A DNA stretch of 64,000 nucleotides from Thiothrix subterranea (GTDB lineage: Bacteria > Pseudomonadota > Gammaproteobacteria > Thiotrichales > Thiotrichaceae), in assembly GCF_030930995.1 (NCBI RefSeq), contig NZ_CP133217.1:2160001-2224000 (forward strand), read 5' to 3'. Under the pieces are notes generated by a model. The model had not been told where the DNA came from, did not search any database, and was given only the letters and a program-made list of their open reading frames with translations. Shown in pieces: positions 10,264 to 51,648 of this stretch. The position numbers and the translations under genes are program-made. The first letter of the stretch is position 1. Each line of letters opens with the position of its first letter.

Positions 10264-10537
10264 AATGTCGTTTCTCCTTGTTGGTTGCTTTACGTGCCGA
10301 TATAAGCCGGATGTTGTCGCCGCGCCATGTGTAAACAACTGTCAATACACGTCCAAACATATCAGCACCTACAGTAATAAAGCGATGCTCTCCCTCAGCC
10401 GTCACGTCTTCGGATGTAACGCCCATGGGGTCATACAGCACGGGTTCAACATCTGATAACCTGATGTTGTGCTTGGCTTCGTTCAACTTTTCCTTGTTGT
10501 TCTTATTCGTCTTTTCCTTGTCCCATTCAACGCTCAT
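10247..10537 (-). CDS. brnT: BrnT-type toxin (ribonuclease)
   Basis: 96 residues from the ATG at 10537 (MSVEWDKEK). A longer frame to 10603 exists, but the family begins at the ...EWD motif. BrnT toxins are RelE-fold ribonucleases that block translation. Conserved features are NEAKHNIRLSDVEPVLYDP, EHRFITVGADMFGRVLTVVY and the C-terminal IRLISARKATNKEKRHYE with the catalytic Arg/Arg/Glu/Tyr region. BrnA follows with a 17-bp overlap. The region after EWDKEK carries a few extra Lys/Asn residues compared with typical BrnT, which may be a natural variant. Confidence 0.87.
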   Translation of the reverse strand: MSVEWDKEKTNKNNKEKLNEAKHNIRLSDVEPVLYDPMGVTSEDVTAEGEHRFITVGADMFGRVLTVVYTWRGDNIRLISARKATNKEKRHYESGI

Positions 10538-10606
10538 ACGTTCGCCTTGTATGTATTCAGTATGCACATTACGCGCCGTTATCCTGAATCTGTCAACAAT
10601 CAATAT

Positions 10607-11170: not shown

Positions 11171-11185
11171 GTCCAAACTTCCTTT

Positions 11186-12274
11186 TCAGGTATTGATTGC
11201 CGCCGTTGCGGTCTTGGATGCGGATAGTGTACCGGATGTCAGGCTTAACAGCTTGTCGGTGATGGTCTGCATGGGTTCTCTGAGACTTTCCACGTCGGTC
11301 ACGATGTATCCGCCGGTCACATCCGCCGCGCCGGTCTTGTGGTTGATCAGACGCTTCAGGGTATAGCCGCGAACACCGATGTTTTCGGCAGTGGTGGCGA
11401 ACGTGCGCCGTAGGTCGTGCATTTCCCAGTGAATACCCGACCTGGTGCGAATGGCCTTTATCGTTTTCTCCACGCTGGACAGTGGCGAGGTGTTGTCAGT
11501 CGCCCGGAATACTAAGCCGCTGCCCTGTCCACTGCGGGCTTGCCACTGTGTCAACAGATCGCGGGTGTAGGTGGTGAGCGGCAGTGTGTGCGCTTGGTGG
11601 TTTTTGGTGTCTTCCAGCCTGATCGTATTGTTGATCAGGTCGATATTTTCCCACAGCAAGGTGCTGGACTCCGTGCGCCGGTAGCCACTGAACAGGGTTA
11701 GCAGGAAATAGACCCGCGCCTTTTCAGCGAGTGCGCCGCCGTACCATTCCGGGAGTGAATTTACCGCTTCGTACCAGATCGGGAGTTCGTCATTTTTGAT
11801 AATGGTCTGTTTACGGTCGACACGATTCCATGCGCGGCTGTGAGAGAGGCGCTTGACCGGATTGGATTTTATCAGCGGTTGTTGATTGTCATCAAAGTAT
11901 TCCTCAGCAGCATAGTTATAAATGCTACGTAACACGCGCATCTCGTTATTTGCCCGTGCCTCTGAGTGTTGGCTGCGTTCGCGGTGACGTTCCTCTACCA
12001 TGTCACGGGTGATGCTGTTCAACGGCAGAGACTCCCAGTCGGAAAAACCGACGCTTACCGCACGTTCATAATCGGCAATCGTGACGGGCTTAAGATTCTT
12101 ATGCGATTTCAGATAATCCTTGAACACTTTTCCCAAGGTCATGTTAGCGAATTGCTGCCCCTCTGCCCTGATTTGCTTTTGCTGGTAACTCGTTTGGCGG
12201 GTGGTGGCTATCAGCGAGAGTTCCTTACGTTTAAAGCGGCTCGCTGTTTTTATTTGTGCTGATCCACAAACCAC
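11186..12274 (-). pseudogene. Tyrosine recombinase (phage-type integrase), N-terminally truncated
   Basis: The core-binding domain (TLGKVFKDYLKSHKNLKPVT onward) and catalytic domain are present, with FSGYRRTESSTL (Arg), LEDTKNHQAH (Lys), MHDLRRTFATT (His-x-x-Arg), LINHKTG (His) and the Tyr in VTGGYIV. The arm-binding N-terminal domain of about 80 residues is missing. The frame opens inside the 3' end of narL, where the first residues (MVCGSAQIKT) are narL sequence read in another frame, and no ribosome site is visible. A deletion has evidently removed the integrase 5' end and the right attachment site and fused the remnant to narL. Confidence 0.85.
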
Positions 12275-12900
12275 ACCGCCGCTTCCACCCGCGACCGCAG
12301 GTTGAGCTTGCGTAGTAAATGTTTGACGTGAACTTTGACCGTGCCTTCGGTGATACCCAGTTCCCGTGCTACCAGCTTATTGCTTTTGCCCGCCGCAACC
12401 CGTTCCAGAATGCGTTGTTCCTGCTCAGTCAAACCCGCTTCGGAGCTGGTTTTGGGGTGAATCGCGTCGTGGCGCATGGCGTGTGCCAGCAAATTGATCA
12501 GACGTTCGGTGAGGGTGATGCGTCCCGCCGCTGCTTCCGCCAGTTTTTCCACCAAATCTTCAGGTTCCATTTCTTTGAGCAAATAGCCGTCTGCACCTGC
12601 GCGTAATGCTGCTACCAAATCACTCGCCTGATCGGAAACCGTCAACATCACTACCCGTGCATCGCTGCCAGAGGCTTTGATGACTTTTAATACCTCAATG
12701 CCGCTCATGTCCTTCATGTTCAGGTCGAGCAAGATCATGTCGGGGGCAAGTTCCAACGCCATGTCGATGCCTTCCTGCCCGCATGAGGCTTCGCCGACGA
12801 TGATGAAATCAGGCACCATATTGACCAAATAGCGCACGCCTTTGCGAAACAAGGGGTGATCGTCCACGATCAGCAGGCTTTGTGGGGTTTCAAGCGGCAT
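12250..12900 (-). CDS. narL: Nitrate/nitrite response regulator NarL
   Basis: 216 residues from the ATG at 12900. The longer upstream frame is antisense to none of the family and is ignored because the start lies within the end of narX. The receiver domain has the acidic pocket DDHPLF, the phospho-acceptor Asp in MILLDLNMKDMSG and the conserved Lys in LLKEMEP. The LuxR-type DNA-binding domain is LTEQEQRILERVAAGKSNKL through ITEGTVKVHVKHLLRKLNL. It ends WFVDQHK. The start overlaps narX by 11 bp, so kinase and regulator are co-translated. It probably controls the narK promoter region at 14765-15055. The truncated integrase overlaps its last codons. Confidence 0.94.
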   Translation of the reverse strand: MPLETPQSLLIVDDHPLFRKGVRYLVNMVPDFIIVGEASCGQEGIDMALELAPDMILLDLNMKDMSGIEVLKVIKASGSDARVVMLTVSDQASDLVAALRAGADGYLLKEMEPEDLVEKLAEAAAGRITLTERLINLLAHAMRHDAIHPKTSSEAGLTEQEQRILERVAAGKSNKLVARELGITEGTVKVHVKHLLRKLNLRSRVEAAVWFVDQHK

Positions 12901-14764
12901 GGGCAATCCTTGTTTTGGGGGTGAAATCGAGTTGTACGCAAGTGCCACCACCCGTGCGCGGCAAGTATTGCAGTATGCCATGCAGGGCGCGGGCGCGTTC
13001 GTCCATAATTGCCATGCCGTAATGGTGCAGGTTGGCGGTTTTTTGGATACCTGCACCGTCATCTTCGATGCGCAATTGCAGGCTGTTATCGTCTTGACGC
13101 TGCAACGACACCCACGCTTGGCTGGCGTGCGCGTGTTTGAGGGTGTTGGATAAGGCTTCGCGCACGATTTGCAGCAGGTGAATTTCTTCGTTGGGGGTCA
13201 GGTTGAGGTTGCCTAAGCTGACCTCCAGCGCAATCGGTAAGTTGCCGCGCTCGGCAAATTCGGTGGTGGTTTGCGCCAATGCCATGCCTAAATCGTCGTC
13301 TTCCATGCGCAAGCGGAAGGTGGAGAGCAGTTCGCGCAATTGCTGGTAGGAACTATTGAGGCCCTCGCGCAATTCTTCCAGTGCAGCGGTAACTTCTGTG
13401 ACATCCGCCGGATTTTTTACCGCCGTGCGCAAGCGGCTGACTTGGATTTTCATATAGGCCAGCGATTGTGCCAAGGAATCGTGCAATTCGCGGGCGATGA
13501 CGGCGCGTTCTTCCAACAGGGAAACGCGGCGGTGCTGTTCGCTGCGTTGTTCGGAGGCAATGGTGACACCGATGTGGCGCGATAATGCTTCCAGCAATTG
13601 TACTTGCCAGCGTTCGGCGGTGGTGTTGGCGGGGACATCGACGGCTAACATGCCGTAACGTTTTTCGGCATCGGTGAGCGGCATCCGCAAGATTTGGCGA
13701 CCGTCGGGGAGTTTGTCCATACGGGCGGCGTGCGGGTCGTGGCATTCGGCGCAACTGTTGGCGCGTTCGCACAGTGGGCTTTTGCCGCTGCTCGCGGTAG
13801 TGGCGACGACATCGCCTTGCTGGTCGTTGTCTTCTTTGAGGCAAATCGTGCCATTGCCTAAGCCCAGCACCGCTTCGGCATCTTTCAACACGTTATGGAA
13901 AACGGCGCGGTCGGGGGCAATGCCGTGCAAGCGTGTGATGGAGCGGTACAGTAAATCCAGTGAACGATTGCTGCGGGTGAGTTCGGCGGTTTTTTGTTCG
14001 ACCCGTGCCTCAAGGTCTTGGTAAAGTTTGGAGAGATCTTCTGCCATCAGGTCAAAAGCTCGTCCTAGTTGCCCGATTTCGTCTTCACCCGCAAGGTCAG
14101 TGCGTACCGCGAGATTGCCTTGGCGGATTTGGTCGGTTAGCCCCAATAGCCCTTTGAGCGGGGTGACAAAAATGTTGTTGACCAAGTAAATGGAGAGGAT
14201 CACGGCGAGGATCGTGCCAATCACGGCAACACCCAAAATCACCCGCAACACCAAAATCTTGGCTTCGGTGGCTTCTTCAATCTGCTTGACCAGATCATTG
14301 ATGTGCGCAACGAATTGGGGAATGGCATCGAGCAATGCGGCATCGGCGGAGGTGGTGGTGCTCGTGGTCAGTAAGGGAATCAGGTCGGGTTTGATGCGTT
14401 GCTGCCAGCCGCTTTCGACTTGCCGATACACTTGCTTGAGCGGGGTGGTTTCGTCGGTGGGCAATACGGAGAGGATCGAGTCCGCCGCTAAATCGGTTTC
14501 AAAGCGTTGGATGGCTTGTTGCAAGTCGCTGCGATGCGTGGGGTTGGGATCTTGCAGAATGCGTTGGTAGAGTGATGCCATACGCCAGCTTTGCATCCGC
14601 AAACTTCCGGCAACGTTGATGGCTTCGCCGTTGCCTTGGGTGGTTTCCGCGACCATCCACGAGGTGGACATGCCGACGACGGCGAGAACGGTGATGGCAG
14701 CGATCATGCCGCCTAGCCGTAGCAGCAGGGAGTTTTGGAGTTTGTTCCACAGAAGGCGGTTCAC
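12890..14764 (-). CDS. narX: Nitrate/nitrite sensor histidine kinase NarX
   Basis: 624 residues from a GTG at 14764 with GAGGA upstream. TM1 is at about 15-37, followed by the periplasmic four-helix sensor with the nitrate-binding P-box (NVAGSLRMQSWRMASLYQR). TM2 is at about 170-195, then HAMP. The central module is a GAF-like domain with the cysteine cluster CERANSCAECHDPH known from NarX. The HisKA_3 dimerisation domain contains the phospho-accepting His in ARELHDSLAQSLAYMKIQVS. The ATPase lobe has the N box (VREALSNTLKHA) and G box (IEDDGAGI). It is divergent from narK1 and co-transcribed with narL. Confidence 0.95.
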   Translation of the reverse strand: MNRLLWNKLQNSLLLRLGGMIAAITVLAVVGMSTSWMVAETTQGNGEAINVAGSLRMQSWRMASLYQRILQDPNPTHRSDLQQAIQRFETDLAADSILSVLPTDETTPLKQVYRQVESGWQQRIKPDLIPLLTTSTTTSADAALLDAIPQFVAHINDLVKQIEEATEAKILVLRVILGVAVIGTILAVILSIYLVNNIFVTPLKGLLGLTDQIRQGNLAVRTDLAGEDEIGQLGRAFDLMAEDLSKLYQDLEARVEQKTAELTRSNRSLDLLYRSITRLHGIAPDRAVFHNVLKDAEAVLGLGNGTICLKEDNDQQGDVVATTASSGKSPLCERANSCAECHDPHAARMDKLPDGRQILRMPLTDAEKRYGMLAVDVPANTTAERWQVQLLEALSRHIGVTIASEQRSEQHRRVSLLEERAVIARELHDSLAQSLAYMKIQVSRLRTAVKNPADVTEVTAALEELREGLNSSYQQLRELLSTFRLRMEDDDLGMALAQTTTEFAERGNLPIALEVSLGNLNLTPNEEIHLLQIVREALSNTLKHAHASQAWVSLQRQDDNSLQLRIEDDGAGIQKTANLHHYGMAIMDERARALHGILQYLPRTGGGTCVQLDFTPKTRIAHAA

Positions 14765-15055: not shown

Positions 15056-16312
15056 ATGGCAACGCAGCAATACAAGGCATGGTCGGTCGTCATCATGAGT
15101 ACGCTGGCCTTCACGGTGTGCTTCATGATCTGGATGATGTTTGCCGTCATCGGGATTCCTATCAAGGCAACCTTGGGTTTGAACGAAACCCAGTTCGGGA
15201 TTTTGATCGCCACGCCGGTGCTGACCGGCTCATTGATTCGCGTGCCGCTAGGGATGTGGACGGATAAATTCGGTGGGCGCATCGTGTTCACCATCCTGAT
15301 GTTGTCCACCATATTCCCGATTTGGATGATTTCGCAGGCGACCCAATTCTGGCATTTCCTCGTAACTGGCTTGTTTGTTGGCGTAGCGGGTGGTTCATTC
15401 ACGGTCGGGATTGCCTATTGCGCCCGCTGGTTTCCGAAGGAACGCCAAGGCTTGGCGATGGGGATTTTCGGTGCAGGCAATACCGGCGCGGCTGTTACCA
15501 AGTTACTCGCGCCCATTATCGTGGTGGGCTATGGCTGGACAATGGTTCCGCAAGTCTACGCGGTACTGATGCTGGTGACGGCGATTGTGTTCTGGTTTTT
15601 TACCTTCAGTGAACCTAGCCACAAGGTGGGTAAATCGGTCACGGTGCGCGAACAGCTTGCTGCGTTCAAAGACCCCAAGGTATGGCGTTACAGCCAATAT
15701 TATTCCATCGTGTTCGGCGGCTACGTCGCGCTGGCGTTGTGGATGACCAAATATTACGTCAGCGAATACGGTTTCGACCTAAAAACCGCCGCGTTTTTGG
15801 CAGCCGCATTCAGTATTCCCGGCGGTTTGTTGCGGGCGGTCGGTGGCTACTTCTCCGACAAACTCGGCGCACACACCCTGACCTGGTGGGTGTTGTGGAT
15901 TTCACTGGTATGCTTGTTCTTCCTGTCTTACCCGCAAAGCGACATCACTATTCAAACCATTGGCGGGGCAAAAACCTTCCATGTTGGCCTGACCCCAACC
16001 GTTTTCACTATCATCCTGTTTACCCTTGGTGTGGTCTTTGCCGTCGGTAAAGCCTCGGTTTTCAAGTACATATCCGACGATTACCCCGACAACATTGGCG
16101 TGGTATCCGGCGTGGTGGGCTTGGCGGGCGGTTTGGGTGGTTTCCTGATGCCGATTATGTTTGGCGCATTGGTGGATCTCACCGGCATTCGCTCTTCCGC
16201 CTTCATGCTGATGTTTGGCGTGGTGTGGGTGTCGCTGATGTGGATGTATTTCACCGAAGTTCGCCCAGTTCATGCCGATTTACACGAAAAATCCCTCACC
16301 ACAAACCTTTAA
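15056..16312 (+). CDS. narK1: NarK1-type nitrate/proton symporter (MFS, NNP family)
   Basis: 418 residues with 12 predicted membrane helices. NNP-family signatures are present: RVPLGMWTDKFGGRIVFTIL in the first half, a nitrate-signature glycine-rich segment GVAGGSFTVGIAYCARWFPK with AMGIFGAGNTGAAVTK, and a second one at DNIGVVSGVVGLAGGLGGF. Its length and position as the first of two NarK genes fit the NarK1 subtype that imports nitrate with protons. The start is the ATG at 15056 after GAGGTG. It ends 15 bp before narK2, so the two are probably co-transcribed from the narK promoter. Confidence 0.92.
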   Translation: MATQQYKAWSVVIMSTLAFTVCFMIWMMFAVIGIPIKATLGLNETQFGILIATPVLTGSLIRVPLGMWTDKFGGRIVFTILMLSTIFPIWMISQATQFWHFLVTGLFVGVAGGSFTVGIAYCARWFPKERQGLAMGIFGAGNTGAAVTKLLAPIIVVGYGWTMVPQVYAVLMLVTAIVFWFFTFSEPSHKVGKSVTVREQLAAFKDPKVWRYSQYYSIVFGGYVALALWMTKYYVSEYGFDLKTAAFLAAAFSIPGGLLRAVGGYFSDKLGAHTLTWWVLWISLVCLFFLSYPQSDITIQTIGGAKTFHVGLTPTVFTIILFTLGVVFAVGKASVFKYISDDYPDNIGVVSGVVGLAGGLGGFLMPIMFGALVDLTGIRSSAFMLMFGVVWVSLMWMYFTEVRPVHADLHEKSLTTNL

Positions 16313-16327: not shown

Positions 16328-17935
16328 ATGACTGATATTAAAAATTGGGACGTGGAAGACACCACGTTCTGGGAAAGCACTGGCAAGAAAATTGCCAACC
16401 GTAATTTGTGGATTTCGATCCCCAGCCTGCTGATGGGTTTCGCCATCTGGCTAATGTGGGGAATTATCACCGTACAAATGTCCAATCTGGGCTTTCCGTT
16501 TAAAGACGATGAATTGTTCACGCTGACGGCGATTGCCGGTTTGGCAGGCGCGACCCTGCGGATTCCGGCTTCTTTCTTTATCCGCTTGGCAGGGGGGCGC
16601 AATACCATTTTCCTGACCACCGCACTGCTGATGATTCCGGCTATCGGCACGGGGTTTGCGCTGCAAAACAAGGAAACCCCGCTGCTGACTTTCCAGATTC
16701 TGGCGTTTTTGTCCGGGATTGGTGGCGGTAACTTTGCGTGTTCCATGTCCAATATCAGCACGTTTTTCCCCAAGCGTTTGCAAGGTACGGCACTGGGTTT
16801 GAACGCGGGTTTGGGTAACTTTGGTGTGACTACCATGCAAATCCTGATTCCGCTGGTGATGACGATGGGCGTGTTTGGCGCATTGGGTGGCGATTCCATG
16901 CCCTTGATGAAAGATTCCGGCTGGATTCTTGGCAAAATTTTGGCAGGCACAGAAACGTGGGTGCAAAACGCGGGCTTTGTATGGCTGGTATTCCTGATTC
17001 CGCTGGCGTTCTTCGGCTTCTTTGGCATGAATAACCTGTTGCCGATTTCTCCGGCGATTGGCGGCACGCTTGCGGCATTCGTGAAAATTTTGTGGCTGTA
17101 TGGCTTGGCGTTTTTGACCACGGCAGTTGGCTTGTATTTGTACTTGCCTGCGCCCACGGGTTTGGGTTTGCTGAATATGTGGGTGGCACTGCCGCTGATC
17201 ATTGTGGCAACGCTGGGGATTATGAAAGTGACTGCCTTTGGTGAAATGAAGGTGGGCATCAACAAGCAATTCGCGATTTTCAGCAATAAGCATACTTGGT
17301 CAATGACCGTGTTGTATGTACTGACCTTCGGCTCTTTCATCGGTTTTTCAATGGCATTGCCACTGGCGATCAAGGTCATTTTCGGCAATACCCATGTGTT
17401 TGATGCAGCCACGCAAGCGTGGGTACATGCCAAAAATCCTAACGCGATTCCGGTGTTTGCGTATGCGTGGATTGGCCCTTTCGTGGGCGCGTTGATTCGT
17501 CCGGTCGGTGGTTGGATTTCTGACAAAGTGGGCGGCTCTATCGTTACGCAAGTGATTTCGGTGGTGATGGTGGGCGCGTCGGCGTATGCGGGTTACATCA
17601 TGATGCAGGCTTATCAATCGGCTACCCCAGAAATTTACTTCCAGCCGTTTTTGTGGACGTTTGTGTTGCTGTTTGCTGCCACCGGTTTGGGCAATGGCTC
17701 AACCTTCCGCACCGTTGGGGTGATTTTTGACCGCCTGCAAGCAGGCCCTGTGTTGGGTTGGACTTCAGCAGTAGCGGCTTACGGTTCATTCATTGCGCCC
17801 GTGGTGATTGGGGCGCAAGTGAAAGCGGGTACGCCGGAAAATGCGATGTATGGCTTTGCGATTTTCTACGCGCTCTGCCTGATTTTGAACTGGTGGTTTT
17901 ATCTGCGTAGTGGCAGTGAGATCAAGAACCCTTAA
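16328..17935 (+). CDS. narK2: NarK2-type nitrate/nitrite antiporter (MFS, NNP family)
   Basis: 535 residues with 12-14 membrane helices and a longer loop in the middle. Signatures include LRIPASFFIRLAGGRNTIFL, GIGGGNFACSMSNISTFFPK, GTALGLNAGLGNFGVTTMQI, GALIRPVGGWISDKVGGSIV and LLFAATGLGNGSTFRTVGVI. These are the Arg residues and glycine-rich nitrate signatures of NNP carriers. By subtype it should exchange nitrite for nitrate and prevent nitrite build-up. The ribosome site GAGGA lies before the ATG. The pairing of NarK1 and NarK2 parallels the NarK1-NarK2 fusion found in Paracoccus. Confidence 0.92.
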   Translation: MTDIKNWDVEDTTFWESTGKKIANRNLWISIPSLLMGFAIWLMWGIITVQMSNLGFPFKDDELFTLTAIAGLAGATLRIPASFFIRLAGGRNTIFLTTALLMIPAIGTGFALQNKETPLLTFQILAFLSGIGGGNFACSMSNISTFFPKRLQGTALGLNAGLGNFGVTTMQILIPLVMTMGVFGALGGDSMPLMKDSGWILGKILAGTETWVQNAGFVWLVFLIPLAFFGFFGMNNLLPISPAIGGTLAAFVKILWLYGLAFLTTAVGLYLYLPAPTGLGLLNMWVALPLIIVATLGIMKVTAFGEMKVGINKQFAIFSNKHTWSMTVLYVLTFGSFIGFSMALPLAIKVIFGNTHVFDAATQAWVHAKNPNAIPVFAYAWIGPFVGALIRPVGGWISDKVGGSIVTQVISVVMVGASAYAGYIMMQAYQSATPEIYFQPFLWTFVLLFAATGLGNGSTFRTVGVIFDRLQAGPVLGWTSAVAAYGSFIAPVVIGAQVKAGTPENAMYGFAIFYALCLILNWWFYLRSGSEIKNP

Positions 17936-17939: not shown

Positions 17940-17982
17940 CCCCTCACCCCAACCCCTCTCCCTCAAGGGGCGAGGGGCTAAG
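17940..17982. repeat. REP-like palindromic repeat, type A
   Basis: It begins CCCCTCACCCCAACCCCTCT, then CCCTCAAGGGGCGAGGGG. It forms a stable hairpin between narK2 and the DsrC-like gene and is closely related to the repeat at 25079-25115. The hairpin may attenuate or process the nar transcript. Confidence 0.75.
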
Positions 17983-17996: not shown

Positions 17997-18389
17997 ATGG
18001 CAATTCAACAGTATGACGACAATCTGCAAACCAACCCTTACGCGATTTATACCTTGGCGTTGGACGTGGATGGCAAGCAAATCCTCACCGATCAGGAAGG
18101 TTACATCCAGAACATGGATGACTGGAGCGAAGGTTTCGTGGAAGCCCTCGCCGAACGTGAAGGCTTGGTGCTGACCGACGAGCATTGGGAAATCATTGAG
18201 TTCCTGCGTAATTACCATCAGGAACACGGGGTACAAGCCCCAGTGCGTGACATGCTCAAGCACTTCAAGCAAGCGTGGGGTGAAGAGTTTGCAACGAACC
18301 ATTACCTGCATGAAATTTTCCCTAAAGGCGGCCCGCAAAAGCAGGGCAATCGTCTGGCGGGTATCCGTAGAACCAAAGGGGAGCATTGA
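17997..18389 (+). CDS. DsrC/TusE-family protein lacking both C-terminal cysteines
   Basis: 130 residues. The fold-defining segments of the DsrC family are present: DQEGYIQNMDDWSEGFVEAL, LTDEHWEIIEFLRNYHQEHG, VRDMLKHFKQAW and YLHEIFPKGGPQKQGNRLAG. In sulfur-carrying DsrC the last part reads KQxC...GCV, with two cysteines that bind and transfer persulfide. Here KQG-N replaces KQxC and the protein ends RRTKGEH, so no cysteine is present at all. It cannot act as a sulfur carrier in the usual way. A regulatory or scaffolding role, as suggested for cysteine-less members of this superfamily, is inferred. It lies between narK2 and narG, with the narG start 6 bp after its stop. Confidence 0.88.
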   Translation: MAIQQYDDNLQTNPYAIYTLALDVDGKQILTDQEGYIQNMDDWSEGFVEALAEREGLVLTDEHWEIIEFLRNYHQEHGVQAPVRDMLKHFKQAWGEEFATNHYLHEIFPKGGPQKQGNRLAGIRRTKGEH

Positions 18390-18394: not shown

Positions 18395-21300
18395 ATGAGC
18401 CACTTTATTGACCGACTGAATTTTTTCAAACGCACCCAAACGCCGTTTTCCAACGGGCATGGCGCGATGACCGAGGAAAGCCGCGACTGGGAAGACGGCT
18501 ACCGCAAACGCTGGCAGCACGACAAAGTGGTACGTTCCACCCACGGCGTAAATTGCACAGGCTCATGTAGCTGGAAAATCTACGTGAAAAACGGCTTGGT
18601 GACGTGGGAAACCCAGCAAACCGACTACCCGCGTACCCGCCCGGATTTGCCGAATCATGAGCCGCGTGGCTGTCCGCGTGGCGCAAGCTATTCGTGGTAT
18701 ATGTACAGCGCCAATCGCCTCAAATACCCCTTGATGCGCCGCCAGTTAATGGAATTGTGGCGTTCTGCCAAAGCGAAAAACCCTGATCCGGTCACGGCGT
18801 GGGAATCTATCGTTGAAAATCCAACCACGGCGCAATCCTACAAAACCCGACGTGGTTTGGGTGGTTTCGTGCGTTCTTCGTGGGATGAAGTTAACGAGCT
18901 AATTGCAGCGGCGAATGTGTATACCGCCAAGCAATACGGCCCAGACCGTGTGATTGGTTTCTCACCGATTCCGGCGATGTCGATGGTGTCGTATGCTGCC
19001 GGAAGCCGTTACCTGTCGTTGATTGGTGGCGTGTGTTTGAGCTTTTACGATTGGTATTGCGATTTGCCGCCTGCGTCACCAATGGTGTGGGGCGAACAGA
19101 CCGACGTGCCGGAATCCGCCGACTGGTACAACAGCAGCTATATCATTGCGTGGGGTTCTAACGTTCCGCAGACTCGTACCCCTGACGCGCATTTCTTTAC
19201 CGAAGTGCGTTACAAAGGCACGAAAACGGTGGCAATTACGCCGGACTACGCGGAGGTTGCCAAACATGCTGACCAATGGTTGAACCCGAAGCAGGGGACA
19301 GATGCGGCGTTGGCAATGGCGTTCGGACACGTCATCCTCAAAGAATTCCACGTTGACAAGCCCAGCGGCTATTTCACCGATTACGTGCGCCGTTACACCG
19401 ACTGGCCGAATCTGGTGTTGCTGGAAGCGCGGGACGATGGCAGTTATCAGGCGGGACGCTTTGCGCGTGCTAGTGACTTCGTGTCTGGTTTGGGCGAAGA
19501 GCAAAATCCTGACTGGAAAACTGTCGCGATTGACGATGCGACGGGCGACATCATTTCCCCGAACGGATCAATTGGCTACCGTTGGGATGGTAGCGGTCAG
19601 TGGAATCTTCAACAAAAAGATGGCAAAACCCACGAAGATGTCAAACTGTCATTGTCCTTGGTTGAACGTCACGATGAAGTGGTAGACGTTGCGCTGCCTT
19701 ATTTTGGCGGTGTGCCGAGCGATTATTTCCAAGGCAATACGCTCAAAGACATTCTCAAGTACAAATTGCCTGCCCGCAAAGTGACCTTGGCGGATGGTAG
19801 CGAAGGCTTGCTGGTGTCGGTGTACGACCTGAACATGGTCAACTACGGTATCAGCCGTGGTTTGGGCGATGATGACAGTGCTAAAGGTTTCGATGATGCC
19901 AATGCGCCGTACACCCCGGCATGGCAAGAAGCGATTACTGGCGTACCGCGTGACAAAGTGATCCGCATTGCGCGTGAATTCGCCGATACCGCCGACAAGA
20001 CCAAGGGCAAGTCGATGATTATCGTCGGCGCGGGCATGAACCACTGGTATCACATGGACATGAACTACCGTGGCTTGATCAATATGCTCGCGATGTGCGG
20101 CTGCGTCGGGCAATCCGGTGGTGGCTGGGCGCATTACGTCGGGCAGGAAAAGCTGCGTCCGCAAACCGGCTGGTTGCCGCTGGCGTTTGGGCTGGATTGG
20201 TCACGTCCGCCACGGCAAATGAATGGCACATCGTTCTTCTACAACCATTCCAGCCAATGGCGTTACGAAAAGCTCGAAATCAAGGAAATCCTTTCCCCGC
20301 TGGCGAACAAAGAACGTCAATCCGGTAATTTGATTGACTACAACGTGCGGGCAGAACGCATGGGTTGGTTGCCATCTGCGCCCCAGCTCAATACCAACCC
20401 GTTACGCATTGCCAAGGCAGCCAAAGACGCGGGCATGAGTCCGGCGGATTACACCGTTGCCAGCCTCAAATCCGGCAAGATCGCGTTTGCGGCGGAAGAC
20501 CCCGATAACGCGCAAAACTTCCCGCGTAACCTGTTCGTGTGGCGTTCCAATTTGCTGGGTTCGTCCGGCAAAGGGCATGAATACTTGCTCAAGTATTTGC
20601 TGGGCACAAAGCATGGCGTGCAAGGCAAAGACCTCGGTGAAATGGGCGGGGTGAAACCGCAAGAAGTGAAGTGGCATACAGATGCGCCCGAAGGCAAACT
20701 TGATTTGCTGGTGACGCTCGATTTCCGCATGTCCACTACCTGCTTGTATTCCGACATCGTGCTGCCGACGGCGACGTGGTACGAAAAGGACGACCTCAAC
20801 ACTTCCGACATGCACCCGTTCATTCACCCGCTGACCGCCGCCGTCGATCCGTCGTGGGAAGCACGCAGCGACTGGGAAATCTACAAAGGCATTGCCAAGG
20901 AATTCTCACGGGTGTGCGTCGGGCATTTGGGCGTGGAAACCGATTTGGTGACATTGCCCTTGCTGCACGATGCGCCAGCCGAACTCGGTCAAGCTTTCGG
21001 CGTGAAGGACTGGAAGAAAGGTCAATGCGACCTGATTCCGGGCAAAACAGCCCCAGCCATGATTGCGGTCGAACGCAATTACCCCGAAACCTACGCCCGC
21101 TTCACCTCGATTGGCCCGTTGATGGAAAAGCTCGGTAACGGCGGCAAAGGCATTGGCTGGAATACCGAAACCGAAATCGCCTTCCTCGGCAAGCTCAATC
21201 ACCAGCACACCAGCGGCACAAACGAAGGTCGTCCGTGCCTGAACAGCGCGATTGATGCGGCGGAAATGATCCTCTCGCTTGCCCCCGAAACCAATGGGCA

Positions 21301-22147
21301 AGTGGCGGTGAAAGCGTGGGCAGCCTTGTCGAAAATTACCGGCATTGACCACACCCACCTCGCTTTGAACAAGGAAGACGAGAAAATCCGCTTCCGCGAC
21401 ATCGTGGCGCAACCGCGCAAGATCATTTCCAGCCCTACTTGGTCGGGCTTGGAAGATGAACATGTGTCATACAACGCCGGTTATACCAACGTCCACGAGT
21501 TGATTCCGTGGCGCACCTTGACGGGGCGGCAACAGTTCTACCTCGACCATGACTGGATGCGTGATTTTGGCGAAAGCATGTTGGTGTATCGCCCGCCGAT
21601 CAACACCAAAACCATCAAGCCGATGCTCAACCAAAAGTCCAACGGCAACCCGGAACTGGCGTTGAACTGGATTACCCCGCATCAAAAATGGGGCATCCAT
21701 TCCACTTACACCGACAACTTGCTGATGCTTACGCTGTCACGCGGCGGCCCCATTGTGTGGATGAGTGAAGACGATGCCAAAAAGCTGGGCATTGTCGATA
21801 ACGACTGGATCGACCTGTTCAACGCCAACGGTGCAATTGCAGCGCGGGCAGTGGTCAGCCAGCGCGTCATGCCGGGGATGGTAATGATGTACCACGCGCA
21901 AGAGCGCATTGTGAACGTACCCGGTTCTGCCATTACTGGCGAACGCGGCGGCATTCACAACTCCGTCACCCGCGTTTGCCCGAAACCGACGCACATGATC
22001 GGCGGTTACGCGCAACAGGCTTACGGCTTCAACTACTACGGCACGGTCGGCTCTAACCGCGATGAATTCGTCATTGTGCGCAAGATGACCAACGTCGATT
22101 GGCTGGACGGCGAAGGTAATGACACCATTCAGGAGGCAGTAAAATGA
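18395..22147 (+). CDS. narG: Respiratory nitrate reductase alpha subunit NarG
   Basis: 1,250 residues, the normal length. NarG holds the Mo-bisMGD active site that reduces nitrate to nitrite on the cytoplasmic face, plus the FS0 cluster. The N terminus (MSHFIDRLNFFKRTQTPFSN) fits family starts, so the ATG at 18395 is preferred over an upstream in-frame codon at 18386. The FS0 motif is THGVNCTGSCSWKIY (His-x3-Cys-x3-Cys) with the fourth ligand in RGCPRG. The segment SFYDWYCDLPPASP is expected to supply the Asp ligand to Mo. There is no twin-arginine signal, in keeping with a cytoplasmic enzyme. It overlaps narH by 4 bp. Confidence 0.97.
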   Translation: MSHFIDRLNFFKRTQTPFSNGHGAMTEESRDWEDGYRKRWQHDKVVRSTHGVNCTGSCSWKIYVKNGLVTWETQQTDYPRTRPDLPNHEPRGCPRGASYSWYMYSANRLKYPLMRRQLMELWRSAKAKNPDPVTAWESIVENPTTAQSYKTRRGLGGFVRSSWDEVNELIAAANVYTAKQYGPDRVIGFSPIPAMSMVSYAAGSRYLSLIGGVCLSFYDWYCDLPPASPMVWGEQTDVPESADWYNSSYIIAWGSNVPQTRTPDAHFFTEVRYKGTKTVAITPDYAEVAKHADQWLNPKQGTDAALAMAFGHVILKEFHVDKPSGYFTDYVRRYTDWPNLVLLEARDDGSYQAGRFARASDFVSGLGEEQNPDWKTVAIDDATGDIISPNGSIGYRWDGSGQWNLQQKDGKTHEDVKLSLSLVERHDEVVDVALPYFGGVPSDYFQGNTLKDILKYKLPARKVTLADGSEGLLVSVYDLNMVNYGISRGLGDDDSAKGFDDANAPYTPAWQEAITGVPRDKVIRIAREFADTADKTKGKSMIIVGAGMNHWYHMDMNYRGLINMLAMCGCVGQSGGGWAHYVGQEKLRPQTGWLPLAFGLDWSRPPRQMNGTSFFYNHSSQWRYEKLEIKEILSPLANKERQSGNLIDYNVRAERMGWLPSAPQLNTNPLRIAKAAKDAGMSPADYTVASLKSGKIAFAAEDPDNAQNFPRNLFVWRSNLLGSSGKGHEYLLKYLLGTKHGVQGKDLGEMGGVKPQEVKWHTDAPEGKLDLLVTLDFRMSTTCLYSDIVLPTATWYEKDDLNTSDMHPFIHPLTAAVDPSWEARSDWEIYKGIAKEFSRVCVGHLGVETDLVTLPLLHDAPAELGQAFGVKDWKKGQCDLIPGKTAPAMIAVERNYPETYARFTSIGPLMEKLGNGGKGIGWNTETEIAFLGKLNHQHTSGTNEGRPCLNSAIDAAEMILSLAPETNGQVAVKAWAALSKITGIDHTHLALNKEDEKIRFRDIVAQPRKIISSPTWSGLEDEHVSYNAGYTNVHELIPWRTLTGRQQFYLDHDWMRDFGESMLVYRPPINTKTIKPMLNQKSNGNPELALNWITPHQKWGIHSTYTDNLLMLTLSRGGPIVWMSEDDAKKLGIVDNDWIDLFNANGAIAARAVVSQRVMPGMVMMYHAQERIVNVPGSAITGERGGIHNSVTRVCPKPTHMIGGYAQQAYGFNYYGTVGSNRDEFVIVRKMTNVDWLDGEGNDTIQEAVK

Positions 22148-23697
22148 AAATCCGTTCCCAAGTCGGCATGGTGCTGAATTTAGACAAGTGCATCGGCTGC
22201 CATACCTGCTCGATTACTTGCAAAAACGTCTGGACTTCACGCGAAGGCATGGAGTACGCATGGTTCAATAACGTCGAAACCAAGCCCGGTATCGGTTATC
22301 CCAAAGAATGGGAGAATCAGGAAAAGTGGAAGGGCGGCTGGTTACGTCGCGCCGATGGCAAGATTGAGCCGCGCATCGGTGGGCGGTTTCGGGTGCTGGC
22401 GAATATCTTTGCCAACCCCGATTTACCGGCGATTGACGATTATTACGAGCCATTCGATTTCGATTACCAACACTTACACAATGCACCCGATAGCAAGCAT
22501 CAGCCGGTGGCACGCCCGCGCTCGCTGATTTCTGGGCAGCGCATGGACAAAATCGAATGGGGGCCAAACTGGGAAGAAATCCTCGGCACGGAGTTTTCCA
22601 AACGCCGCAAGGACAAAAACTTCGACCAGATTCAGGCGGACATTTACGGTGAATTTGAAAACACCTTCATGTTTACCCTGCCGCGTTTGTGCGAACACTG
22701 TTTGAATCCGGCGTGTGTGGCGTCTTGCCCCAGCGGTGCGATTTACAAGCGTGACGAAGACGGCATTGTATTGATCGACCAAGACAAATGCCGGGGCTGG
22801 CGCATGTGCGTGAGCGGTTGCCCTTACAAGAAGATTTACTACAACTGGAAGTCCGGTAAATCCGAGAAGTGCATTTTCTGTTACCCACGCATTGAAGCGG
22901 GGATGCCGACGGTGTGTTCCGAAACCTGCGTGGGGCGTATCCGTTACCTTGGCGTGTTGCTGTATGACGCGGATCAGATTGAGTCCGTCGCCAGCACACC
23001 CAACGAAAAGGATTTGTACCAGAAGCAGTTGGAAATATTCCTTGACCCATTCGACCCGAAAGTGATTGAGCAGGCGAAAAAAGACGGCATTCCCGACAAT
23101 GTGCTGAAAGCCGCGCAAGAGTCTCCGGTGTGGAAGCTGGCGATGGATTGGAAGCTGGCACTGCCGTTGCACCCTGAATACCGTACTTTGCCAATGGTGT
23201 GGTATGTGCCGCCACTGTCCCCAATCCAATCGGCGGCGGATGCGGGAAAGATTGGCTACGACGGCGTATTGCCGGACGTGGACAGCTTGCGGATTCCGGT
23301 ACGTTACTTGGCAAACTTGCTGACGGCGGGTGACGAAGAGCCGGTGAAACTGGCACTCAAACGCCTGATGGCCATGCGCCAATACAAGCGGGCGGAAACC
23401 GTGGAAGGCATCCACGATACCTGTGCGTTGGAGCAAGTCGGTTTGTCTGAGGCGCAAGCCAAGGAAATGTACCGTTATTTGGCGATTGCCAATTACGAAG
23501 ACCGTTACGTAATCCCCACCAGTCACCGCGAACTGGCACGCGAAGCCTTCCCCGAACGCGGCGGCTGCGGTTTCAGCTTTGGCGACGGTTGCGGCACTAG
23601 CACGGGGAATAACGAGGTCAACCTATTCGGCGGGCGCAAGCAAACCGTGACAATGGTGCAAAAAATCGACTTCGTGAAGCAGGAGGTCAAGCCATGA
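22144..23697 (+). CDS. narH: Respiratory nitrate reductase beta subunit NarH
   Basis: 517 residues carrying the electron-transfer clusters FS1-FS4 between NarI and NarG. Four cysteine groups are visible: CIGCHTCSITCKNVW, CEHCLNPACVASC, CRGWRMCVSGCP (where Trp replaces one Cys, typical of the [3Fe-4S] cluster FS4) and CIFC...CSETC. The family C-terminal region includes GKIGYDGVLPDVDSLRIPVR. The start ATG overlaps the narG stop and the end overlaps the narJ start (ATGA in both cases), showing tight coupling. Confidence 0.97.
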   Translation: MKIRSQVGMVLNLDKCIGCHTCSITCKNVWTSREGMEYAWFNNVETKPGIGYPKEWENQEKWKGGWLRRADGKIEPRIGGRFRVLANIFANPDLPAIDDYYEPFDFDYQHLHNAPDSKHQPVARPRSLISGQRMDKIEWGPNWEEILGTEFSKRRKDKNFDQIQADIYGEFENTFMFTLPRLCEHCLNPACVASCPSGAIYKRDEDGIVLIDQDKCRGWRMCVSGCPYKKIYYNWKSGKSEKCIFCYPRIEAGMPTVCSETCVGRIRYLGVLLYDADQIESVASTPNEKDLYQKQLEIFLDPFDPKVIEQAKKDGIPDNVLKAAQESPVWKLAMDWKLALPLHPEYRTLPMVWYVPPLSPIQSAADAGKIGYDGVLPDVDSLRIPVRYLANLLTAGDEEPVKLALKRLMAMRQYKRAETVEGIHDTCALEQVGLSEAQAKEMYRYLAIANYEDRYVIPTSHRELAREAFPERGGCGFSFGDGCGTSTGNNEVNLFGGRKQTVTMVQKIDFVKQEVKP

Positions 23698-24377
23698 TTA
23701 AGATCTTTGCCGTACTGGCACGCTTAATGGATTACCCCACGGCGGAACTGATCGAAGCGCGGAGTGCCTTGATTGACGTGGTGCGTGAAGAAACCCGTTT
23801 GCCGGTGGCTTTGCGCGATTCCCTGACCGCTTTCATCCAGCAATTGGGTACGGGCGATTTGCTGGATGCGCAGGAAGATTACGTGGCGCTGTTTGATCGC
23901 GGGCGTTCGCTGTCCTTGCTGCTGTTTGAACACGTTCACGGCGAATCGCGGGATCGTGGGCAGGCAATGGTGGATTTGCTCCAGCAATACCGCGATGCGG
24001 GGCTGGAGTTGAGTGTCAAGGAATTGCCGGATTACATCCCGTTGTATCTGGAATACCTCGCCACCCGCAGCGAAGCAGAAGCGGCGCAAGGCTTGGGTGA
24101 TGTTCACCCGATTCTCGCGCTGTTATCGGCACGCTTGCAGGAACGCGGTAGCAATTACCACCTGTTGTTTGATGGCTTGCTGGCGATGATTGGCATCCAG
24201 CCCAACATGGGGGAATTGCGCGGTAAAGTGGCAACCGAACCCCGCGACGATACTGCTGCTGCGATGGATAAGGTCTGGGAAGAGGAAATGGTCGCCTTTG
24301 TGGAAGACAAAGGCGCGTCGTGCCGACCCACCCAATCCACCAACCAAACCCACACGCTGCATTTTCGGGAGAACTGA
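23694..24377 (+). CDS. narJ: Nitrate reductase assembly chaperone NarJ
   Basis: 227 residues of the TorD/NarJ all-helical chaperone family. NarJ binds the NarG N terminus and allows cofactor insertion before membrane docking. The conserved segments are VLARLMDYPTAELIEARSAL near the N terminus, YVALFDRGRSLSLLLFEHVH with GESRDRGQAMVDL in the middle, and ELPDYIPLYLEYLATRSEAE. The C-terminal 30 residues (from DKGASCRPTQ) are variable. It overlaps narH by 4 bp, and narI begins 1 bp after the stop. Confidence 0.95.
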   Translation: MIKIFAVLARLMDYPTAELIEARSALIDVVREETRLPVALRDSLTAFIQQLGTGDLLDAQEDYVALFDRGRSLSLLLFEHVHGESRDRGQAMVDLLQQYRDAGLELSVKELPDYIPLYLEYLATRSEAEAAQGLGDVHPILALLSARLQERGSNYHLLFDGLLAMIGIQPNMGELRGKVATEPRDDTAAAMDKVWEEEMVAFVEDKGASCRPTQSTNQTHTLHFREN

Positions 24378-24378
24378 T

Positions 24379-25056
24379 ATGTCTTACTTTGATTCACTTT
24401 TCTTTGGGCTGTACCCCTACGTGGCAGGGGCGGTGTTTCTGATTGGTAGCTGGCTGCGTTACGACCAAGCGCAATACACTTGGCGGGCGGGTTCTAGCCA
24501 GATGTTGAGCAATTCAGGAATGCGCGTGGCGAGTAACTTGTTCCATGTGGGTATTCTGGTGATTTTCTTCGGGCATTTGGTGGGGTTGTTGACCCCGCAT
24601 TGGTTGTATGAACCGTTTATGTCACCCGGAACGAAGCAGGTGCTGGCGATTCTCATTGGTGGGATTGCAGGGGCGGCTTGCTGGTATGGCGCGTTCTTGC
24701 TGTTCATGCGCCGCAAGAATGATCCACGGGTACGCGCTACTGGCTCGACGATGGATCTGGCGGTGATTGGTATTTTGCTGGTGCAAGTGACGTTGGGTTT
24801 GCTGACCATCATTCCGACCTTGGGGCATTTGGATGGCAGCAATATGTTGCGGCTTGCGGAATGGGCGCAATCCATTGTGTTCTTTAAAGGCGGTGCGGCG
24901 GCGCATCTGGCGGATGTGGGCTTTATCTTTAAGCTGCATATTTTGCTGGGCTTGACCGTATTTTTGCTGTTCCCGTTTACGCGCTTGGTGCATATCTGGA
25001 GCGTGCCAGTGCAATACGTGAATCGTCAGTATCAAATCGTGCGAGCGCGGGGGTAA
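24379..25056 (+). CDS. narI: Respiratory nitrate reductase gamma subunit NarI (cytochrome b)
   Basis: 225 residues with five membrane helices. It binds two b hemes and oxidises quinol. The start is the ATG at 24379, one base after narJ. The much longer frame from 24190 lies over narJ and is not used. The N-terminal DSLFFGLYPYVAGAVFLIGS and SNLFHVGILVIFFGHLVGLL carry a conserved His ligand. The C-terminal FIFKLHILLGLTVFLLFPFT and LVHIWSVPVQYVNRQYQIVR carry the others. Directly followed by ppiC. Confidence 0.96.
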   Translation: MSYFDSLFFGLYPYVAGAVFLIGSWLRYDQAQYTWRAGSSQMLSNSGMRVASNLFHVGILVIFFGHLVGLLTPHWLYEPFMSPGTKQVLAILIGGIAGAACWYGAFLLFMRRKNDPRVRATGSTMDLAVIGILLVQVTLGLLTIIPTLGHLDGSNMLRLAEWAQSIVFFKGGAAAHLADVGFIFKLHILLGLTVFLLFPFTRLVHIWSVPVQYVNRQYQIVRARG

Positions 25057-25059: not shown

Positions 25060-25872
25060 ATGGAAGTGATGCAATATACCCCTCACCCTAGCCCTCTCCC
25101 TCAAGGGGAGAGGGGACAAGAAGTGCGCGTTGGTGCGCAAGTGCTGACGGAGGAGGCGATTGCGGAAGAGTTGCAATACCACCCGGCCGCACAATTGGAT
25201 GAAGCATGGCAAGCAGCGGCAACCAGCTTGGTGGTGAAAACCTTGCTGGAACAACGCGCTGCACAACTGGGTATCGAAGCCGCTAGTGAAGAAGAACGCA
25301 CCGCCCTGTTGTTGGAAAGGGAGCTGCAAGTGCCTGATCCAACAGAGGCGCAGTGTCTTCACTATTTTGAGAGCAATCGGCAACGCTTTCAAACGCCGGT
25401 ATTGCTGGCAGTGAGTCATATCCTGTTGCCCGCCGCGCCGGATGATGTGCAGCAACGTGACCAACAGCGCATTCTGGCGACGCAATTGCTGCGGCAGTTG
25501 CAAGCTGACCCGGATAGCTTTACGGCATTAGCCCAGCAATATTCCGCCTGCCCGTCATCGGGGCAAGGTGGCAGTCTTGGGCAATTGTCGAAAGGGCAAA
25601 CCGTGGCGGAATTTGAACGCCAAGTATGGCGCTTGCCCGTTGGTTTAAGTGCAGAACCAGTGGAAACGCGCTTTGGTTTCCATCTGGTGCGCCTCGATCA
25701 GCGCGTGGAAGGCGAGCCGCTGGAATATGAGCATGTGGCAACGCGCATCCGCCAGTATTTGCATGAGCAAGTGACGCGGCGGGCGTTGAGCCAATATTTG
25801 CAGGTGTTGGGTGCGGAGATTGGCGTTGAGGGGATTGCCTTCAATGCCGCTGGTTCGCCGTTGATGCAGTAA
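25060..25872 (+). CDS. PpiC-type (parvulin) peptidyl-prolyl isomerase of the nar operon
   Basis: 270 residues. After a helical NifM-like N-terminal region, the parvulin domain spans about 110-225: LLAVSHILLPAAPDD, FTALAQQYSACPSSGQGGSL, GQLSKGQTVAEFERQVW and PVETRFGFHLVRLDQRV. No signal peptide is seen, so it is cytoplasmic and probably helps NarG or NarH fold. A parvulin gene at this position is known from other denitrifier nar operons. The first 20 codons (TPHPSPLPQGERG) are the translation of a REP-like repeat, so the N terminus has been built from, or extended by, repeat DNA. It starts 3 bp after narI. Confidence 0.9.
   Translation: MEVMQYTPHPSPLPQGERGQEVRVGAQVLTEEAIAEELQYHPAAQLDEAWQAAATSLVVKTLLEQRAAQLGIEAASEEERTALLLERELQVPDPTEAQCLHYFESNRQRFQTPVLLAVSHILLPAAPDDVQQRDQQRILATQLLRQLQADPDSFTALAQQYSACPSSGQGGSLGQLSKGQTVAEFERQVWRLPVGLSAEPVETRFGFHLVRLDQRVEGEPLEYEHVATRIRQYLHEQVTRRALSQYLQVLGAEIGVEGIAFNAAGSPLMQ
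25079..25115. repeat. REP-like palindromic repeat, type A, inside ppiC
   Basis: Begins CCCCTCACCC; CCCTCTCCC (25092-25100) pairs with GGGAGAGGG (25106-25114). Related to 17940-17982. It is read in frame as PHPSPLPQGERG near the start of the PpiC protein. Confidence 0.82.
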
Positions 25873-25952: not shown

Positions 25953-25968
25953 CTTTATGAGGTGGTGT

Positions 25969-26955
25969 ATGGGTAATGGATTAATTGACCCGTTTGGGCG
26001 TGAAATTAGCTACTTGCGGGTATCGGTGACGGATCGCTGTGACCTGCGGTGTTTTTACTGTATGCCGGAACACTTCAACGATTATACCGTGCCGGATCAT
26101 TGGCTGAGCTTCGAGGAAATCGAGCGGGTCACGGCAGCGTTTGCCGCCTTGGGCGTGAGTCGGTTGCGCTTGACAGGTGGTGAACCGTTGGTGCGCAAGG
26201 GCTTGCCTGAACTGGCGACGCGGCTGGCAGCATTACCCGGCATTACCGACTTATCCCTCAGTACCAATGCCAATCGTCTCGCGCAGGAGGCAGTGGCACT
26301 CAAGCAGGCGGGCGTTTCCCGCCTCAATATCAGTCTCGATAGCCTGCAACCCAAACGCTTTCAACTCATTACCAAAGGCAAGTTGGATAAAGTCATGGCA
26401 GGCTTGATGGCAGCCAAAGCCGCTGGGTTTGCCCCAATCAAAATCAATATGGTGGTGATGCAGGGCATTAACGACGACGAAGTGCTGGATATGGTGGAAT
26501 TCTGTCTGGAACACCGCTTCACCTTGCGTTTTATTGAGACCATGCCGATGGGTGAAACGGGGCGTAATGCTCGCGATTCGTATTACCTGAGCCTGCAAAC
26601 GGTTAAGGCACGGCTGGCGGAACACTACAATTTGTTGCCGTCGATCATGGAGGGCGGTGGCCCGGCGCAGTATTACACCATTGGCGATACAGGGTTGAAG
26701 ATTGGGTTTATTACGCCGATTTCGCAGCATTTTTGTGCTACCTGTAACCGTGTGCGGCTGGGTGTGGATGGCACGTTGTATTTGTGTTTGGGGCAGGAAC
26801 ATAGCGTGGCATTGCGTCCGTTATTGCGGGCAGGGATTAGCGATGTGGCATTGCAAGGAGTGGTCCGCAAGGCGTTGTGGCTGAAGCCGCTGGAGCATAA
26901 CTTCAACCAAACGCAAACGCAGGTGTTGCGGTTTATGTCGATGACGGGTGGGTAA
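25969..26955 (+). CDS. moaA: GTP 3',8-cyclase MoaA (molybdenum cofactor step 1)
   Basis: 328 residues. MoaA is a radical SAM enzyme that with MoaC converts GTP to cyclic pyranopterin monophosphate. The N-terminal cluster motif is CDLRCFYC (Cys-x3-Cys-x2-Cys), and the C-terminal cluster for GTP binding is CATCNRVRLGVDGTLYLCLG. LRLTGGEPLVRKGLPEL is the SAM-binding GGEP motif. The start ATG at 25969 has GAGGTG 4 bases upstream; an earlier in-frame ATG at 25957 lies on top of that site and is rejected. The typical C-terminal GG is present (MSMTGG), as required for activity. It supplies Moco to NarG. Confidence 0.95.
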   Translation: MGNGLIDPFGREISYLRVSVTDRCDLRCFYCMPEHFNDYTVPDHWLSFEEIERVTAAFAALGVSRLRLTGGEPLVRKGLPELATRLAALPGITDLSLSTNANRLAQEAVALKQAGVSRLNISLDSLQPKRFQLITKGKLDKVMAGLMAAKAAGFAPIKINMVVMQGINDDEVLDMVEFCLEHRFTLRFIETMPMGETGRNARDSYYLSLQTVKARLAEHYNLLPSIMEGGGPAQYYTIGDTGLKIGFITPISQHFCATCNRVRLGVDGTLYLCLGQEHSVALRPLLRAGISDVALQGVVRKALWLKPLEHNFNQTQTQVLRFMSMTGG

Positions 26956-51228: not shown

Positions 51229-51561
51229 TTAACCCGTACTCCACCCACGCGGACGTTGCATCCCCGCAATCTTGCAGGTCTGTTTCACATAGCCATACGG
51301 GAACAACTGGAATAATTGTTGCTTAGCTGCTTTTTTGTCGATGCCTTGCTGTTTTGCCATGAAGTCAGTGACGTGGCGAATGTCGGGCGTGATTTGGTTC
51401 TCGCCCCACGAATCGCGCACGAAGTTCAACACCACCCAATACGCATCGGTCAATTCGATGTTTTCTTCGGCGGCTAAGGCGTGGGCAAGGTCTGGATTCC
51501 AGTCTTCGGGGTTGACGAGATAGCCTTCGGCATCGCGTTCAGCGTTTATTTCTGTGGGCAT
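51229..51561 (-). CDS. DsrC/TusE-family protein with one C-terminal-region cysteine
   Basis: 110 residues from the ATG at 51561, with AAGGAG upstream. DsrC fold segments are DAEGYLVNPEDWNPDLAHAL, LTDAYWVVLNFVRDSWGENQ and QLFQLFPYGYVKQTCKIAGM. The upstream Cys of the DsrC tail is present (KQTCKIAG), but the penultimate Cys is not: the protein ends QRPRGWSTG in place of the usual GCV. It therefore keeps only one of the two persulfide-relay cysteines, and it is the residue that normally makes the intramolecular disulfide partner. First gene of the TDT-globin-nnrS set and divergent from a LysR regulator. Confidence 0.88.
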   Translation of the reverse strand: MPTEINAERDAEGYLVNPEDWNPDLAHALAAEENIELTDAYWVVLNFVRDSWGENQITPDIRHVTDFMAKQQGIDKKAAKQQLFQLFPYGYVKQTCKIAGMQRPRGWSTG

Positions 51562-51648
51562 GATGCATCTCCTTTTCCTACTAAAGCATTCAAATTCAAG
51601 CATAGCGATAAGCCTTAATCCTTACATAACGATATTTTTTGCTGTCTA

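Follow-up and report, generated by a model that had tools for sequence, protein, structure and literature searches.

The nar locus and its features

We analyzed a stretch of 64,000 nucleotides of the Thiothrix subterranea genome, referred to below as the window, in which narK1, narK2, a gene that we name dsrCn, narG, narH, narJ and narI follow each other in this order, with a parvulin-like and a moaA-like gene behind them (Table 1). The names of narG and narH rest on curated cut-offs, and those of the other genes on weaker matches, similarity, position or inspection by eye. The stop codon of dsrCn (18387-18389) and the ATG of narG (18395-18397) are separated by 5 bp. A preliminary description of this DNA had placed the gene 6 bp before narG; that it is encoded together with the nar genes was confirmed, and the spacing is corrected here. 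The inverted repeat in the gap between narK2 and dsrCn did not fold clearly better than shuffled sequences (z = -1.3; no better than 23 of 200).

Two other regions of the window deserve mention. A BrnT/BrnA-like toxin-antitoxin pair and a tyrosine recombinase, recognized by eye at positions 10000-12274 next to a narL-like gene, may mark a mobile element. A minus-strand run at 48472-51603 encodes a DsrC-family protein that keeps only one arm cysteine, CysB (KQTCKIAG..WSTG), a TehA/TDT-like transporter and, by eye, a small globin-like and an NnrS-like protein.

Table 1. Features of the nar locus and a related gene in the window (CysA and CysB, the two arm cysteines of DsrC)
Feature	Positions	Strand	Basis
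NarX/NarQ-like sensor kinase, divergent from narK1	12890..14764	-	best profiles NarQ and NarX, below cut-off
narK1, nitrate/nitrite transporter-like	15056..16312	+	by eye and position
narK2, nitrate/nitrite transporter-like	16328..17935	+	NarK/NarU-family profiles, below cut-off
37-bp G+C-rich imperfect inverted repeat, narK2-dsrCn gap	17941..17977	+	sequence
dsrCn, cysteine-free DsrC-fold protein, 130 aa	17997..18389	+	translation, profiles, alignment, model
codons of arm GGPQKQGNRLAGIRRTKGEH (Asn118 at CysB, Glu129 at CysA)	18327..18386	+	alignment
Shine-Dalgarno-like AAGGGGAG for narG, within K-G-E codons of dsrCn	18376..18383	+	predicted role
narG, nitrate reductase alpha subunit	18395..22147	+	TIGR01580, 2313.6 bits
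narH	22144..23697	+	TIGR01660, 1010.8 bits
narJ	23694..24377	+	position and length
narI (predicted start at MSYFDSLFF)	24379..25056	+	weaker match, similarity, position
parvulin-type peptidyl-prolyl isomerase-like gene	25060..25872	+	by eye
moaA-like gene	25957..26955	+	by eye
CysB-only DsrC-family gene (KQTCK..WSTG), beside TehA/TDT-like gene	51229..51603	-	alignment, tree; TDT profile below cut-off

DsrCn has the fold and arm of DsrC and lacks the arm cysteines

The product of dsrCn contains no cysteine and belongs to the DsrC/TusE/DsvC superfamily, scoring above the curated cut-offs of both the Pfam DsrC profile PF04358 (residues 24-125, E = 1.7e-32, 112.5 bits against a cut-off of 24.9) and TIGR03342 (100.8 against 53.5). 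Its score with the TusE equivalog profile NF008562, 85.9, lies below the cut-off of 191. The AlphaFold model (pLDDT 90.6) matched eight solved structures at E <= 0.001 in Foldseek, all of the DsrC family, with DsrC of Allochromatium vinosum (1yx3) on top at 40% identity. The full-length, cysteine-free DsrC fold announced in the preliminary description is thus borne out by translation, profiles and model.

We then compared dsrCn with seven close relatives, six from Thiothrix and one from a gammaproteobacterial MAG (L082-L088). Since these are 79-98% identical and give dN/dS ratios of 0.02 to 0.10, the frame is not a chance one; profile, fold, orthologue and dN/dS results together rule out an annotation artefact. 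Judged by these ratios, dsrCn is under strong purifying selection across the whole gene.

Alignment with the DsrC of the same genome placed one additional residue ahead of the arm, Asn118 at the position of CysB (Cys100 in A. vinosum numbering) and Glu129 at that of the penultimate cysteine, CysA. In DsrC the latter, Cys111 of A. vinosum, is reported to bind sulfur and to be strictly conserved (PMC3397948). With both cysteines of the carrier replaced, the chemistry would exclude sulfur carriage of the DsrC kind, in agreement with the preliminary description, which had called persulfide carriage impossible and the flexible C-terminal arm preserved. Indeed, the arm, GGPQKQGNRLAGIRRTKGEH, is present, and conservation within the protein is highest along GGPQKQGNRLAG..TKGEH. 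The arm holds six Lys/Arg residues, compared with three in the host DsrC.

DsrCn among the DsrC-family proteins

The host genome encodes six PF04358 proteins. The true DsrC, with both arm cysteines, lies inside the dsr cluster (dsrA identified by profile, the other dsr genes by eye), and a cysteine-free paralogue (L002) is found on the opposite strand upstream of dsrA, separated from it by other genes. The remaining four are DsrCn, the CysB-only protein of Table 1, a CysA-only TusE-like protein and a divergent protein without arm cysteines. At L007 (G000:C2:3682000-3701000), a cysteine-free paralogue that ends in NRKGGY is encoded upstream of dsrA, on the opposite strand. Relatives ending in RKGGY were read in 19 other genomes, of which 14 belong to the genomes with dsrA in the 370-genome sample introduced further down (dsrA was scored in those 14).

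DsrCn shares its fold and C-terminal arm with DsrC, but its arm cysteines are replaced, it has the extra residue before the arm, and it is encoded with a nitrate reductase rather than with dsrAB. TusE belongs to the same superfamily, whereas DsrCn falls below the TusE cut-off and has no penultimate cysteine. The CysB-only proteins (KQACK..WSTG) also occur near narG-type genes and lack CysA; unlike DsrCn, they keep CysB and form a separate group in the tree. Closest in kind are the cysteine-free DsrC-like proteins of dsr loci, which we take to be the RspA proteins of the literature. Like them, DsrCn is DsrC-like and without arm cysteines, but the two fall into separate supported clades in a quick tree (see below), and the dsr-linked proteins end in RKGGY instead of KGEH. 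Cysteine-free DsrC-like proteins as such are already known, RspA being an example.

In the openly licensed PMC literature, as far as it was covered, we recognized no report linking DsrC-family genes to nar operons, and an earlier mention may exist elsewhere; the parts of PMC11636981, PMC9796809 and PMC4853749 consulted contain nothing on a nar-linked DsrC-family gene. Several highly transcribed dsrC/tusE genes are described for a Thiodiazotropha symbiont (PMC13137333).

DsrCn forms a clade

A first alignment comprised nine sequences. To find further relatives, we scanned one genome per species with one arm and one helix pattern and kept the best 79 of 331 relatives. QKQGNR is present in the arm of every one of the 79, and none has an arm cysteine. 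The sequence closes with KGEH in 78 and with RGEH in the remaining one. No cysteine at all was found in 65; each of the other 14 has a single cysteine, which does not fall within the last 21 residues. As one scan pattern is part of the arm, the number with QKQGNR partly reflects how the loci were chosen; five of the 79 lack this pattern and still contain QKQGNR, and KGEH was in no pattern. An alignment of 49 relatives shows no variation in QKQGNR or at Gly128, and the 48 rows long enough to include positions 129 and 130 all have Glu129 and His130. Mean entropy in this alignment was 0.29 bits for the arm (residues 110-130), compared with 1.13 for residues 24-54 and 0.99 for residues 55-95.

A quick tree of 97 of 98 rows and 121 columns, from which L202 was left out for having too few columns and in which several rows are long, placed DsrCn in a clade of 57 rows (SH-aLRT 95). 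The dsr-linked cysteine-free paralogues formed a separate clade of 20 rows (SH-aLRT 96), the CysB-only proteins a group of eight rows, one of them long and divergent (SH-aLRT 95), and DsrC a group of 11 rows that includes a long TusE-like branch (SH-aLRT 86). The tree thus places the four kinds apart, with a tentative deep branching given the few columns and the long rows. The frames read for L059 and L202, of 5 aa each, were unusable. A one-off loss of cysteines in a single strain is ruled out by the clade. Four DsrCn open frames (L077, L078, L145 and L168) have a putative N-terminal extension of several tens of residues.

dsrCn recurs beside nitrate and nitrite genes

Neighbourhoods were read from listed coordinates; contig ends hide some neighbours, the genomes are not independent, and genes in other loci were named by similarity to window or locus proteins, some by sight. 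Among 63 genomes of the host family, 15 have narG, in 17 copies, and dsrCn stands directly upstream of 14 of these copies, in 13 of the 15 genomes (two of the 14 dsrCn genes are shortened). The narG copies without it are those of G038 and G043 and the second narG of G059. The shortened genes, in G052 and G053 (L093, Thiothrix lacustris), lack the same 31 codons, in frame, and with them the central helix; the arm remains, and the nar genes are kept. As G038 and G043 have narG without DsrCn and the T. lacustris copy is shortened, DsrCn is not essential to nar.

Within the best 79 of 331 relatives, nar genes lie within about 5 kb of dsrCn at 48 loci. Among the other 31, 14 are near nas-type, HPP or NnrS genes, six are in dsr operons, where dsrCn follows a CobB/DsrN-like gene, and 11 show none of these markers, some of them being cut by contig ends. 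Over all 79 loci, with overlaps allowed, we counted nas-type genes at six, HPP at nine, NnrS at four, dsr at six and CBS at one. The nas-type neighbours include a molybdenum enzyme with similarity to NasC, PP2C/kinase proteins, a NirC-type channel and an NrtA-like protein; the HPP membrane protein family includes nitrite transporters.

The placement of the gene also varies. It is directly upstream of narG in Thiothrix and after narI in many other genomes. In two Thiothrix genomes it adjoins other molybdenum enzymes: in G055 (L075) a molybdopterin enzyme with a BFD domain, matching Fdh-alpha/NasC profiles below cut-off, and in G062 (L071) an Fdh-alpha/NasC-like enzyme (below cut-off) with a Fer4/DmsC-like partner. 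Some copies stand beside regulators of LysR, NarXL-like or PP2C/kinase type. At four Sedimenticola loci (L097, L130, L131 and L137), a LysR gene is divergent from an HPP gene that dsrCn immediately follows, possibly a small nitrite-linked unit.

The dsrCn-narG junction and exchange of narGHJI

The last nine codons of dsrCn, including the stop, are identical in nucleotide sequence in the window and in eight related loci with narG behind (L082-L088 and L093). They contain AAGGGGAG, located 11 nt before the narG start in the window and identical in the eight loci. dsrCn and narG are therefore probably translationally coupled in these nine loci, to judge from the nucleotide sequence. In eight compared loci where dsrCn does not precede narG, the codons differ and KGEH is kept, which rules out that KGEH is retained solely for a narG ribosome site.

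In L084-L086, DsrCn is 93-97% identical to that of the host, yet NarG is only 58-59% and NarH 62-63% identical; it appears that narGHJI was replaced while the dsrCn gene in front of it changed little. The distant type of narGHJI (58-59% NarG identity) was seen directly behind a little-changed dsrCn in the Thiothrix-type loci L084, L085, L086 and L070, and G062 has both types, each with its own dsrCn.

DsrCn occurs in genomes with the Dsr pathway

To place DsrCn in a wider setting, we used a single draw of 370 genomes from the class, in which narG is present in 67 and dsrA in 125; the counts below are uncorrected for relatedness. An exact codon pattern of QKQGNRxAG was found in 24 of the 370, and a reversed control pattern in none. 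All 24 motif genomes have dsrA (Fisher, 1e-12, relatedness ignored). What the preliminary description treated as a single case is therefore a widespread clade, restricted in this sample to dsrA genomes. Within the dsrA genomes, narG accompanies the motif in 11 of 24 and is present in 19 of 101 without it (p = 0.008, relatedness ignored); no narG was found in the other 13 motif genomes. QKQGNR is present in the 24 copies by definition of the pattern; the last residues are GEH in 23 of them and KGEV in one. Within 1.5 kb on each side, nine of the 24 loci have nar genes, seven a nas-type gene or molybdenum-enzyme subunit, one NnrS and one CBS, while six have no marker in that range.

Besides the host, 66 genomes have narG; 29 of these have dsrA and, among the profile matches listed, which do not include all weak ones, 34 have a DsrC-family protein. 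Among the same matches, a DsrC-family gene lies within about 5 kb of narG in 16 narG genomes, the host included: 16 of the 30 with dsrA, compared with none of the 37 without it, leaving 14 of the 30 without such a gene. Because no DsrC-family match whatever is listed for 32 of these 37, the latter result speaks of distribution and not of choice of place. That nar-operon homologues might usually keep the cysteines, which the preliminary description had named as grounds against its own proposal, was not observed: none of the 16 has CysA, nine, of the DsrCn type, lack both arm cysteines (one, in G093, has a cysteine elsewhere), and seven have CysB only. Three of these seven are encoded after narI; the other four have a NarG nearby that shares just 46% identity with the host protein.

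Possible roles of DsrCn

The preliminary description had proposed a structural or regulatory part in nitrate respiration, perhaps with sensing of sulfur status. This proposal is supported in part, by the fold, the cysteine loss, the kept arm and the shared operon, and the role itself is hypothetical. Taken together, the kept fold and arm, the lost carrier chemistry, the selection on the arm and the company of nitrate/nitrite and Dsr genes argue for a docking regulator or adaptor. We tentatively propose, at somewhat less than even chances, that DsrCn is a DsrC paralogue without catalytic function which uses its arm to dock and connects nitrate/nitrite metabolism with sulfur oxidation by the Dsr pathway. 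It would act as a pseudo-carrier, with the DsrC fold and docking arm and no persulfide at Asn118 or Glu129. The arm would most likely dock on a partner from the Dsr/DsrC network, with DsrMK, DsrAB-L and DsrEFH as candidates, or on the nitrate/nitrite system, and docking, in whichever direction control may run, would adjust sulfur-derived electron flow to nitrate use. Counting against this proposal, 13 of the 24 motif genomes have no narG, 14 of the 30 genomes with both narG and dsrA lack a nar-linked DsrC among the matches listed, seven of the 16 nar-linked DsrC-family proteins retain CysB, and markers are missing at 11 of the 79 loci and, within 1.5 kb, at six of the 24 motif loci. A more specific form, which we consider unlikely, makes DsrCn a permanently charged look-alike of sulfur-loaded DsrC, in which Glu129 replaces the persulfide-bearing CysA; it would occupy the DsrC docking site on a Dsr partner and throttle or redirect sulfur-derived electrons when the genes for nitrate/nitrite reduction are on.

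The proximity of dsrCn to three kinds of molybdenum enzyme, namely NarG, the BFD-domain type of L075 and the Fer4/DmsC-partnered type of L071, and the moaA-like gene in the window operon would also fit a factor that matures or protects cytoplasmic molybdenum nitrate reductases. It would bind NarG, an assimilatory-type apo-enzyme or a protein that inserts the cofactor, and would order sulfur-relay traffic during this insertion. There is a precedent in Pseudomonas aeruginosa, where the persulfide-modified TusA-like protein PA1006 is reported to be needed for all nitrate reductase activities (PMC3568122). However, DsrCn cannot pass sulfur on an arm cysteine, nitrate reductases are produced elsewhere in its absence, as the 37 narG genomes without dsrA have no nar-linked DsrC gene (again with 32 of them free of any match listed), no molybdenum enzyme is among the markers of the HPP/LysR loci L097, L130, L131 and L137 (L099 has one), and five of the six dsr loci lack such an enzyme, the sixth, L160, having a weak one. 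We thus regard this role as rather improbable, and we give about the same weight to a regulator of nar, nas or dsr genes that would bind nucleic acid through a helix-turn-helix-like part of the DsrC fold and the basic arm. The doubled number of Lys/Arg residues in the arm relative to host DsrC and the copies adjoining LysR, NarXL-like or PP2C/kinase genes agree with such a regulator, and A. vinosum DsrC reportedly binds DNA upstream of dsr; the weak Foldseek similarity to LexA (3jso, probability 0.25, E = 2.8) points the same way but is not significant.

The position directly upstream of narG in Thiothrix, the ribosome-site-like stretch for narG in the 3' end of dsrCn and the location after narI in many other genomes could suggest a stable accessory subunit of NarGHI. 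Such a role is quite improbable: a close-fitting subunit is less likely because DsrCn at 93-97% identity stands with NarG at 58-59%, 31 of the 79 loci (best 79 of 331) show no nar genes nearby, the clade is also found beside nas-type, HPP and dsr genes, and T. lacustris keeps nar with a copy 31 codons shorter. Finally, dsrCn might be a relic whose frame survives since its 3' end carries the ribosome-binding site of narG, in line with the nine nucleotide-identical codons in the window and eight loci and with the shortened T. lacustris gene, which keeps its end and frame. This is very improbable given the strong purifying selection over the whole gene and the KGEH ending kept with different codons in eight loci not before narG.

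Significance

In sediments, wastewater and symbioses, the coupling of sulfur oxidation to nitrate reduction joins the sulfur and nitrogen cycles, and to our knowledge it is little understood how cells match the two pathways. The recurrence of DsrCn beside nitrate/nitrite genes in sulfur oxidizers with the Dsr pathway suggests an unstudied link between them. DsrCn, whose gene is often found after nitrate/nitrite genes and was confined to genomes with dsrA in the class sample, offers a concrete, deletable candidate for this link, and matches to DsrC/TusE in metagenomes are not all sulfur carriers. If DsrCn does mimic sulfur-loaded DsrC, Gamma- and Betaproteobacteria with Dsr genes would have in it a protein dedicated to switching between the two cycles.
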